From NCBI RefSeq assembly GCF_000969985.1, contig NZ_CP009526.1:4340001-4404000 (forward strand): a stretch of 64,000 nucleotides of DNA, read 5' to 3'. How positions within the stretch are numbered: position 1 is the first letter of the stretch; each line of letters opens with the position of its first letter. Below, piece after piece: positions 9,847 to 64,000 of the stretch. This stretch comes from Methanosarcina barkeri str. Wiesmoor (lineage in GTDB: Archaea; Halobacteriota; Methanosarcinia; Methanosarcinales; Methanosarcinaceae). The notes beneath the pieces are model-generated. The model saw only the letters and a program-made list of their open reading frames with translations. It was not told the DNA's origin and searched no databases. Position numbers and translations under genes: made by a program.

Positions 9847-9918
9847 GCCGTCGTGGCTTAGCGGTATAGCGGCTGATTCGTAATCAGCAGGTCGAGGGTT
9901 CAAGTCCCCCCGGCGGCT
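9847..9918 (+). tRNA. tRNA-Thr (anticodon CGU)
   Basis: A 72-base cloverleaf without CCA. Acceptor arm GCCGTCG (9847-9853) pairs with CGGCGGC (9911-9917) with one G-U pair; U73 follows, as in archaeal threonine tRNAs. The anticodon arm is GCTGA-TTCGTAA-TCAGC, giving anticodon CGU for ACG codons. The T arm is GAGGG-TTCAAGT-CCCCC with one A-C mismatch. A TATA-like ctatatatta at about 9811-9820 lies at promoter distance, and a short T run follows the gene. There is no intron. Confidence 0.96.
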
Positions 9919-10072
9919 CTTTTTCACTATTTATATCGTGTTCATCATTTTTTATATTCATTTTTTATATCATCTTCTGTCAATAAAAAGGTCGACAACT
10001 CGATAACAAGATCTGGTTTTAAAAAAGAAAGAAATTAAGTTTTGGAAAAGACATAACGAGCTTGCTTTATCT

Positions 10073-10354
10073 TCAAGCTTTCAGGCCTGCAGCATAGCCT
10101 TTCGGGAAGCAGTCACTGTAGCCTCTTTCATAGCCTCTATCATAGTCAGTTTTAGTGGCCGTTCTCTCTATAAATGCACTGTAGGGCTTCTTGCTGTCGA
10201 CTTTGCCTTCTCTAAATCCGTCTTTATAGCCATCTCTGCAGCCGTCTTTATACCCGTTATCATATTCTCGCTGGCTTGCTGTTGCCGCCGCAGCTGTTAA
10301 TGAAACTACAAAAATGACTAACAGCAAGACAGCCATTGTCTTTTTCATACTCAT
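10073..10354 (-). CDS. Secreted GY-repeat protein
   Basis: The start ATG at 10354 encodes MSMKKTMAVLLLVIFVVSLT, a Sec signal peptide ending near TAAAATAS; GGGGGA lies seven bases upstream. A longer in-frame ORF starts at 10504 but runs through a leader that is conserved upstream of an unrelated gene, so it is rejected. The mature part is about 65 residues of repeated Tyr-x-x-Gly-Tyr units (YDNGYKDGCRDGYKDGFREG, then a second block), with two Cys. Function is unknown; a small exported surface or periplasm-like protein is inferred. Its leader and signal peptide closely resemble those of the secreted cupin at 41946. Confidence 0.75.
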   Translation of the reverse strand: MSMKKTMAVLLLVIFVVSLTAAAATASQREYDNGYKDGCRDGYKDGFREGKVDSKKPYSAFIERTATKTDYDRGYERGYSDCFPKGYAAGLKA

Positions 10355-10600
10355 TTGTTGATCCCCCAATTTATCCCAACTTAATGGATTTGCGGATGCT
10401 GGATTTTCAATCCATCCAGTGTTGGCAGATGCATTCATTTTACCAATGGGTCGATTCAGCGTATTTTTGATGAGGATGATAACAGCGATAGATTCTATCC
10501 TCATTTTACATACTTGGATTTGCCAACAGAGGCAATTTCAAACACATGCAATAGAGCAATTATTAGTTATTTATTATAATATTGGTAGAAATATAAATAT
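10355..10600 (-). promoter_or_regulatory. Conserved 250-bp leader, copy A
   Basis: Read on the minus strand, this stretch aligns over nearly its whole length with 41696-41945 on the plus strand. Best-conserved blocks are an upstream TATA-like tatttatatttct, a 31-base core at 10518-10548 (29 of 31 identical) with a GCC-TCTGTT-GGC mini-hairpin, a segment aaaatgaggat, and the final ttgggggatcaacaaATG with the ribosome-binding site. It therefore contains promoter plus 5' leader. The ATG inside (atgaggat) does not keep a shared reading frame between copies, arguing for a DNA or RNA element rather than a peptide. Confidence 0.8.
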
Positions 10601-41256: not shown

Positions 41257-41695
41257 CTTCTGAAAAATAAATTTTCCCCAAAATATACGTTTAACTCCAT
41301 AAATATACGTTTCCTGTATGCGTATATTTAAGAACGATGTGGAAGAATTGCACATTGTAATCAAACGTGCGATTTAGGTAGTTAAAGGTTTAATGTTATT
41401 GATTTTCAATTCAACCATGTAAGTACTGCAATCATGGAAATATTAACTGAGCCTATCCCAAAACCAATTTTTGGGCTTACTCAGTAAGATTCTCGGGATC
41501 ATCCTTCTAAGTCCAAAACTCGATTTTTCCAGGTTAACTAAACACGCATGAGTTTAAGTCCCAAACTTGGCGAACCAATGAAAACCCTATGCATTTGAAG
41601 AATAAATACTACGAAATATATAACTATTACACATCTTTTTGGGAAAGTTGAATGGGAAAAATCGACTTCGTTGTTTTTTATTTTAATTTTTCTAA
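41257..41695. other. Long spacer with mobile-element relics
   Basis: About 440 bases. 41378-41410 (gttaaaggtttaatgttatt) is one of three related segments in the window, the others being at 25121 and 60710. gagcctatcccaaaa at 41449-41463 resembles the end of the IS5-family element; together with tttttggg just after it, it could form a hairpin. No gene is seen. Confidence 0.4.
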
Positions 41696-41945
41696 TATTT
41701 ATATTTCTGCTAATATTATATTTATTAGATATAATTCTTTTATTACATGTGTTTGAAATCGCCTTTGTTGGCAAATTCCATGATATAAAATCATGATATA
41801 AAATGAGGATGGAATTTAATAATTACCCTCATCAAAATTCACTGGACGATTTATTGATAAAGTGAATACACCTGCCAGCATCGGTGGATTGAAAACTAAC
41901 ATTTGCAAAATTGATTGAGTTGAAACAGATTGGGGGAATCAACAA
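41696..41945 (+). promoter_or_regulatory. Conserved 250-bp leader, copy B
   Basis: Aligns with the minus strand of 10355-10600. Shared blocks are TATA-like tatttatatttctg at 41696, the 31-base core at 41746-41776 (29 of 31 the same as copy A), aaaatgaggatggaat, ctgccagcatcggtggattg, and ttgggggaatcaacaaATG at the end. A short upstream frame from atgaggatggaa stops after 20 codons here but is in frame with the gene in copy A. The similarity continues into the signal peptide codons. Confidence 0.8.
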
Positions 41946-42539
41946 ATGAGTCTTAAAAAGACACTGGGTATCTTGCTGGCAGTTTGTTTTTTACTATCAA
42001 TTGCTGCAACGGCAGTAAGTGCTAAAGAACTACCCAGCATGGCTGGAAAGGAGACATGCAAGACAGAGACGTGTAAGGCAGAGACATACAAGACAGAGAC
42101 GTGCAAGACAGTAGATAAGGCAAAAAATAAGATGAAAGGATTTTCTATCGATATCGAAAAGGCCACTTTAGAAAATAACTATTTCCGCAAGGTGCTCTAT
42201 ACCTCAAAGTACAGCCAACTAGTAATTATGAGTCTCAATCCCGGGGAAGATATCGGAATGGAAGTGCATGAGAAAAATGACCAGTTTCTTCGCTTTGAGG
42301 AAGGACAGGGAAAGTGCATAATTAACGGTAACGAATATGAAGTCGGTAACGGGTCCGCTGTGGTTGTGCCGGCAGGTGCCCAGCACAATGTCATTAACAC
42401 TTTGAAAACAGGTTCTCTGAAATTCTATGTAATCTATTCACCACCTGTTCACAAGGACGGCATTATACGCGCCACGAAGGCCGAAGCCGAAGCTAATCCA
42501 GAGGAATATGACGGCGTGACTACGGAATACACTAAGTAG
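41946..42539 (+). CDS. Secreted cupin protein
   Basis: A 197-residue protein. MSLKKTLGILLAVCFLLSIA is a Sec signal peptide ending near TAVSAK, similar to that of the GY-repeat protein at 10073. The mature chain first has four 5-residue units of the type ETCKT/ETCKA, then a cupin barrel (about 75-180) with GMEVHEKNDQFLRFEEG and VVVPAGAQHNVIN, in which the His and acidic residues could bind a metal. Outside-facing location is predicted from the signal. Ligand unknown. A clear hairpin terminator follows. Confidence 0.82.
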   Translation: MSLKKTLGILLAVCFLLSIAATAVSAKELPSMAGKETCKTETCKAETYKTETCKTVDKAKNKMKGFSIDIEKATLENNYFRKVLYTSKYSQLVIMSLNPGEDIGMEVHEKNDQFLRFEEGQGKCIINGNEYEVGNGSAVVVPAGAQHNVINTLKTGSLKFYVIYSPPVHKDGIIRATKAEAEANPEEYDGVTTEYTK

Positions 42540-59253: not shown

Positions 59254-59277
59254 GTTTCAATCCTTGTTTTAGTGGAT
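59254..59277 (-). repeat. Solitary CRISPR repeat piece at the RT break
   Basis: The first 24 bases match exactly the array repeat seen at 63633 (gtttcaatccttgttttagt then ggat on the plus strand); the following actcttcgtgat keeps only traces of its 3' end. It ends the open frame of the RT fragment. A weaker trace, gtttcaatcctt, is at 59471-59482. Confidence 0.8.
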
Positions 59278-59613
59278 ACTCTTCGTGATAAAAACGAAAA
59301 TAAAATTTAAGGAACAAAAGGAGGAAAAAAGTAATGATCCAAGAAGAGATAATTTTTTGTCTTTGCTTAATCGAAGTTTGTTTTAACATTTTTCTAGAAG
59401 CTCTTGAAATCATTAATTTGATAAATATGAAAAAATAAATTAAAGTTTCGGCGATTTTTCCAGATTGCCGGTTTCAATCCTTTTTTCTTTGCCTCTATTT
59501 CTTGATTATGTTTTGACAGGTGTCAAAAATTAAAAAATTAAAGAGAAAAAAAGTTTAAATCTGAATTTTTGCGGTATTTCGGGATACTTTTACCACTTCC
59601 CAACTTTTCCAGC

Positions 59614-63516: not shown

Positions 63517-64000
63517 GTTTCAATCATTTCCTTTTTTATTGGATCTTGATCGCGAATAGTATATACACAACTTACTTAAAAAGCATTGCTCACGAATCGA
63601 GTTCTCTGGGAATGTATGCCCAAAGGCTGTAGGTTTCAATCCTTGTTTTAGTGGATCTTGCTCACGAATCCTTACAGCCTTAGCACATAATGACACATTT
63701 GTAAGGTTTCAATCCTTGTTTTAGTGGATCTTGCTCACGAATCGTTGCAGAGGTTCTTCTGATGTAACTTTCCGGAAGTTTCAATCCTTGTTTTAGTGGA
63801 TCTTGCTCACGAATAAAAGAGCTAAGTATCTAATTATACGTGAACTTAAGTTTCAATCCTTGTTTTAGTGGATCTTGCTCACGAATTAATGTATGATCCT
63901 CCAGTTTATTTAAAAATGGAGTTTCAATCCTTGTTTTAGTGGATCTTGCTCACGAATTAGATTGCAAACAGATTTTGAATGTCAAAAAGAGTTTCAATCC
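63517..64000 (-). CRISPR. CRISPR array, trailer end; continues beyond window
   Basis: Five perfect 37-base repeats (63633-63669, 63706-63742, 63778-63814, 63850-63886, 63921-63957) and the first 10 bases of a sixth at 63991. Spacers are 36, 35, 35, 34 and 33 bases. To the left, a 35-base spacer precedes a repeat of which only ttgctcacgaat (63586-63597) survives, and a 41-base distorted repeat is at 63517-63557. Read on the minus strand the repeat ends in ATTGAAAC, the usual 5' handle of type I and III crRNAs, so transcription is right to left, the leader is off-window and the worn repeats are the old trailer end. The repeat is of the kind I recall for M. mazei. Confidence 0.96.

Follow-up and report, generated by a model that had tools for sequence, protein, structure and literature searches.

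The two leaders and their genes

The window, which is the whole stretch of 64,000 nucleotides of Methanosarcina barkeri str. Wiesmoor that was analysed, contains two genes for secreted proteins with similar upstream regions. The first gene (10073..10354, minus strand) encodes a GY-repeat protein of 93 amino acids, which carries the signal peptide MSMKKTMAVLLLVIFVVSLTAAAATA and has only a sub-threshold Pfam match (Yae1_N). The second gene (41946..42539, plus strand) encodes a secreted cupin of 197 amino acids that is composed of a signal peptide, a Cys/Lys-rich linker, and a Cupin_2 domain (Pfam PF07883, E 1e-13). A tRNA-Thr(CGT) gene (9847-9919, plus strand) lies close to the GY gene at its 3' end, and the minus strand of the window carries CRISPR direct repeats (Rfam CRISPR-DR7), one of them isolated (59254-59290) and five forming an array (63633-63957).

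When 10355-10600 is read on the minus strand and 41695-41945 on the plus strand, the two regions align from end to end with 73% identity, and searching all 4.9 Mb of the genome gives this similarity an E-value of 1.8e-30. A core of the alignment (10548-10518 on the minus strand and 41746-41776 on the plus strand) is identical at 29 of 31 positions, and dinucleotide-preserving shuffled windows contain 0.00-0.01 matches to the core pattern per window. The similarity also spans the TATA-like promoter, the Shine-Dalgarno sequence, and the codons of the signal peptide. The TATA-like box TTTATATTTC is located at 10588..10597 (minus strand) in the GY copy, where it is supported by the alignment and by the family promoter consensus, and at 41698..41707 (plus strand) in the cupin copy, where it is supported by the alignment. 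The Shine-Dalgarno sequence GGGGG, identified by sequence, is found at 10363..10367 (minus strand) and 41932..41936 (plus strand), the ribosome-binding-site/start stretch reads TTGGGGGA(A)TCAACAAATG, and the signal peptides behind the two leaders are MSMKKTMAVLLLVIFVV and MSLKKTLGILLAVCFLL. The initial annotation had claimed the full-length alignment from the TATA-like box to the ribosome-binding site, the core identity, the ribosome-binding site, and the likeness of the signal peptides, and all these claims held, that on the core exactly. It had overlooked an insertion of about 13 nucleotides in the cupin leader (about 41788-41800) and another copy, the third of this genome (C2:1331248), which heads a second GY gene and has about 130 nucleotides of the leader deleted.

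Distribution of the leader family

By blastn, the leader was found in 13 of 40 relatives, and every match is inside the genus Methanosarcina. In the close family, as obtained by blastn and by the covariance model R1, the leader heads either a secreted cupin or a GY-repeat gene. R1 was built from 12 leaders of other genomes and none from this genome. It recovers the structured element of the cupin copy (41740..41912, plus strand; 137 bits, E 4e-27) as well as that of the GY copy (10386..10554, minus strand; 122 bits, E 6e-24), and its weaker matches in other species are found ahead of different small secreted proteins. One R1 match (L128) overlaps a coding repeat and was excluded as doubtful. 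The covariance model R2 was built from 17 diverged copies and includes no close relative of the window leaders. At E<=0.1 its counts per genome add up to 156 matches, which are distributed over 28 of 31 Methanosarcina genomes with a maximum of 24 copies in one genome. Because R2 was built without close relatives of the window leaders, its recovery of both of them at genome E-values of 1.3e-8 (cupin copy) and 5.0e-8 (GY copy) links the families independently. The search of 81 genomes from 13 other Methanosarcinaceae genera with R2 resulted in zero matches. Family and spread are shown by this sequence evidence. Three Methanosarcina genomes (G005, G006, and G045) have no R2 match, though two of them are near complete.

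In Rfam 15, no family matches the leader at the gathering score, and a relaxed threshold revealed only chance-level snoRNA matches (E 0.58-0.59). We did not find any earlier description in the open-access literature searched, subscription papers and preprints being outside the scope. A multi-copy, covarying leader family that is common to unrelated cargo in an archaeal genus appears to be new.

Fold of the leader RNA

The fold common to the aligned leaders is a rod, P1a-P1d, that closes a loop with the hairpins P2 and P3, and beside the rod there is a conserved single-stranded stretch, UUGAAAAACCAACA. In the GY copy (all minus strand), the closing helix P1d is built by GUUGGCA (10521..10527) and UGCCAAC (10421..10427), hairpin P2 by AUGAGGAU (10497..10504) and AUCCUCAU (10470..10477), and hairpin P3, with two mismatches in this copy, by ACCCAUU (10445..10451) and AAUGAAU (10433..10439). 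The counterparts in the cupin copy (all plus strand) are GUUGGCA (41767..41773) and UGCCAGC (41873..41879) for P1d, which is a covarying helix, AUGAGG (41803..41808) and CCUCAU (41827..41832) for P2, as placed by the cmsearch alignment, and AUUUAUU (41849..41855) and AGUGAAU (41861..41867) for P3.

The support for an RNA fold is the covariation and not the energy, because the minimum free energies of the leaders are unremarkable (z -0.3 and -1.2). In a sequence-only MAFFT alignment 90% of the cells pair and 10 pairs are changed on both sides. None of 500 shuffles matches four of the five covariation measures of the first MAFFT alignment, in which slid partners, serving as control, pair at 34-45%, and in another sequence-only MAFFT alignment the covariation is matched by at most 4 of 500 shuffles. 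Compensatory changes in P1d are, for example, U-A to C-G in two sequences and G-C to A-U in three sequences. In an alignment of 93 copies every covariation measure beats all shuffles (0/500). On the tree, 42 pair-preserving double changes are found versus 7.2+/-2.9 with permuted partners (0/5000), and each helix is enriched. The alignment of the 93 copies had been made by fitting them to the model; a sequence-only realignment agrees with it and contains 34 tree-aware double changes versus 8.2+/-3.1. The common fold is shown at the level of sequence evidence, and given this structural covariation it is likely that the leader is a folded RNA. The short-leader GY paralogues miss most of the structure and have kept promoter and gene. 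Therefore, the structure is not indispensable everywhere.

The promoter

The consensus upstream of the leaders is ATTAATAYTGGTTTCTTAnTTATATTTC, which is followed by TTATATT and ATAATAAT. Allowing up to three mismatches, the promoter pattern is found more than 90 times in the genus, and its reverse not once. In the window, the cupin/GY subfamily, which is M. barkeri-like, has kept the TATA part and not the TGGTTTCTTA part. With a common motif upstream of many members, the family meets the membership test for a shared promoter regulon. The spacing between the TATA box and the leader model, most often 40 nucleotides, is likewise shown by sequence evidence. Standard archaeal promoter spacing puts the start about 10-15 nucleotides before the rod. 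Transcription would, by inference, begin about 10-15 nucleotides before the first helix, and the leader would be transcribed as part of the mRNA, for which there are no transcript data. A start site close to the ATG, leaving the conserved block untranscribed, had been named as a refutation by the initial annotation; transcription of the block is inferred from the position of the TATA box and no start site has been measured.

Two further loci, L004 (G000:C2:283038) and L013 (G000:C2:2377206), encode a cytosolic protein of 81 amino acids and a PKD protein, respectively, behind the promoter and what appear to be the strands of the rod ends (ATTGTATC). Their middle parts are diverged, and they may be further family members under the threshold of the model.

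Cargo of the leaders and signal peptides

Of 112 tested loci, 95 (about 85%) precede an ORF with a predicted signal peptide compared to 15% at random positions, and under strict criteria these values are 83 of 112 loci versus 0.85%. The signal peptides were assigned by a hydropathy rule (hydrophobic N-terminal segment) and not by a trained predictor. At this level, the association of leader and signal peptide is shown by sequence evidence. The mature cargo includes Cys/Gly/Trp-rich, Lys-rich, and GY/Yae1-like repeats as well as PKD domains, beta/gamma-crystallin domains, beta-propeller (NHL/lactonase-like) stalk proteins, and cupins. Among the 187 leader pairs that can be aligned over at least 150 nucleotides, 82 have mature proteins without similarity detectable by blastp, some of which are low-complexity relatives that blastp misses. 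The leader of a crystallin gene and that of a propeller gene are 75% identical over 241 nucleotides.

DUF2795 genes that do not encode a signal peptide, found in the same genome (C2:4735395) and at loci of genome G013, are headed by the promoter and by at least some portions of the leader. Hence, the leader is separable from the signal peptide, and the idea of a strict export-only module was rejected on the basis of these genes. In G013, one leader copy lies 106 nucleotides before a DUF1699 gene. Other copies in this genome have no downstream ORF and adjoin insertion-sequence-like ends, and in L186 and L213 the leader is followed by a hairpin and six U without a downstream ORF.

Sequences like the insertion-sequence end GGACTTACGCA are located inside or just behind the leader copies L036/L055 (G014) and L185, L186, L192, and L213 (G013). 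A GY gene of G001 (L024, G001:C59, about 10949) has ACG where its relatives start with ATG, and its leader and Shine-Dalgarno sequence are intact.

It is likely that both window leaders belong to a cassette specific to Methanosarcina, which consists of a conserved archaeal promoter, a structured leader of about 170 nucleotides, and usually a Sec-type signal peptide, and which heads a dispersed set of genes for secreted or cell-surface proteins. New cargo would join this cassette mainly via gene duplication and fast divergence of the low-complexity mature regions, and sometimes by fusion.

Capture of a cupin

Most of the genus encodes a cytosolic cupin that has neither leader nor signal peptide and is 72-79% identical to the mature secreted form. 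The cytosolic paralogue of the same genome is 75% identical to the secreted cupin over residues 59-194. The RNA models detect the leader at nine loci that encode a secreted cupin, and at the 16 loci of leaderless cupins they detect none. This sequence evidence shows the capture, at least for the cupin: a cytosolic domain that already existed acquired the promoter, the leader, and the signal peptide. The direction from cytosolic to secreted is inferred because the cytosolic cupin is broadly distributed. Relatives of the cupin domain with 55-72% identity are present in MAGs labelled Patescibacteria and other bacteria (L041-L049). It is possible that these relatives result from horizontal transfer or from binning mix-ups.

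The initial annotation had offered two scenarios, that the module was attached to other cargo or that it was kept while the cargo diverged, and both held, the first with the secreted cupins having and the cytosolic cupins lacking the module, the second with the 82 dissimilar pairs. The absence of further copies in related genomes, which would have refuted it, was not observed given about 150 copies in Methanosarcina. Its idea of a regulatory RNA is met by a folded RNA backed by covariation, the regulatory effect being inferred only and not supported by any measurement. Its idea of a co-regulated export regulon held partly, as some copies precede apparently cytosolic genes and co-regulation is an inference.

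Possible mode of action and alternative explanations

We infer that the leader may act in cis on the translation or stability of its own mRNA. According to the predicted fold, the long rod would hold the ends of the leader together and leave the downstream ribosome-binding site open. The unpaired probability of the ribosome-binding-site/start region is 0.52 with the native leader versus 0.40 with shuffled leaders, and it is higher in 52 of 69 cases. Folding was done at 37 C only, and with sequences that are related to each other the p-value is not to be read literally. Because the predicted fold leaves the ribosome-binding site open, a protein-binding or stabilising leader is favoured over a switch that masks this site. 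Such a leader would insulate or stabilise the message and act as a platform for binding; a protein may, for instance, contact the single-stranded, conserved UUGAAAAACCAACA. These steps are inferred, there being no binding data. The promoter common to the members probably sets the regulon, and the genes would be co-regulated via promoter and leader, which is again an inference in the absence of expression data.

The alternative that survives best is that the DNA promoter alone regulates, and that the structured leader stabilises the mRNA in a generic way without specific regulation, as is typical of long methanogen 5' UTRs. This remains possible. Conservation of the promoter is high, and at some loci there is hardly any recognisable leader structure behind it (a PKD protein at G000:C2:2377192 and the short-leader GY genes), and long 5' UTRs are the rule in methanoarchaea, averaging about 150 nucleotides (PMC3510493). 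However, about 150 loci have the same fold of 170 nucleotides with specific internal sequences, which generic stabilising would not need.

A ligand- or temperature-responsive, riboswitch-like element with two folds controlling the ribosome-binding site is unlikely. In favour are the long conserved fold, the single-stranded UUGAAAAACCAACA beside the rod, and the position ahead of functionally linked genes, and one membership test for riboswitches, a conserved covarying aptamer-like fold in the 5' UTR, is met (the UTR position being inferred from the TATA box). However, the other, an alternative structure gating the ribosome-binding site or a terminator, is not met. An alternative 5' hairpin, GUGAU/AUCAC, looks good by eye but its covariation is not beyond that of shuffles, and there is no enrichment of base pairs between the 3' rod strand and the region of the start codon, by which the start codon would be sequestered (3.9 vs 3.6 bp, 37/69). 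In addition, the ribosome-binding site is more open in the predicted fold and not masked, and the membership test for an RNA thermometer, low-temperature pairing of this site, is not met in the 37 C folds (0.52 vs 0.40).

It is similarly unlikely that the leader is an mRNA zip-code that directs transcripts to the membrane so that their products are exported during translation. The strong co-occurrence of leader and signal peptide would fit, but the leader also heads genes without a signal peptide, such as the DUF2795 gene at C2:4735395 and others in G013. We also regard as unlikely a trans-acting small RNA that is derived from the mRNA leader. The ORF-less G013 copies L186 and L213, ending in a hairpin and six U, speak for this idea, but they adjoin insertion-sequence-like ends and may be decayed genes, and nearly all other copies are at mRNA-leader distance from an ORF. 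Recent paralogy only, with the leader as a functionless leftover of duplicated genes, is very unlikely; gene duplication clearly contributes, but compensatory changes are found on many branches and cargo similarity is lost while the leader stays alignable. A regulatory peptide encoded by the leader is all but excluded. Both window copies contain the uORF MCLKxPLLANxx, but several close relatives no longer have its start codon (ACG in G024) and the wider family has GATACAATTTGAAATCAC at this place instead, so that the leader fails the membership test for leader-peptide attenuation, a conserved short ORF.

We thus favour a protein-binding or stabilising leader in cis. A bolder reading, for which we see as much reason to believe as to doubt, is that an undescribed archaeal RNA class, together with promoter and signal peptide, constitutes a portable expression-and-export cassette of a riboregulated Methanosarcina surface-protein regulon, which is able to turn a cytosolic protein such as the cupin into a co-regulated secreted one.

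Relation to known systems and significance

Like the riboswitch-class 5' leaders in Rfam, the Methanosarcina leader has a conserved covarying 5' UTR fold upstream of functionally linked genes. In contrast to them, it matches no Rfam family, is restricted to a single genus of archaea, and forms one unit with promoter and signal peptide, and neither an alternative fold nor masking of the ribosome-binding site was detected. Within the same genus, a conserved promoter and 5' UTR are known from the S-layer gene slmA1 (PMC3361143), which also has a conserved upstream, untranslated leader ahead of an exported envelope protein. However, slmA1 is one orthologous gene whereas the leader family heads many unrelated genes. 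The genes for small secreted salivary gland proteins of the Hessian fly (PMC2955719) are similar in having non-coding regions that are better conserved than the diversifying coding sequences, but they are eukaryotic and no structured RNA family has been described for them, whereas the Methanosarcina unit is prokaryotic and has a covarying leader.

As far as we know, few natural cis-regulatory RNAs have been described from archaea. Here, a leader family of about 150 copies is found in a genus some strains of which are genetically tractable, and it yields a testable regulon. To our knowledge, the surface proteins linked by the leader have not been grouped before. Because their mature parts are of low complexity and fast evolving, the leader is a route to surface proteins that homology misses. 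The cupin provides a clear case of a cytosolic domain made secreted by joining a promoter-leader-signal-peptide unit. It is possible that the leader family coordinates what the Methanosarcina cell puts on its surface.
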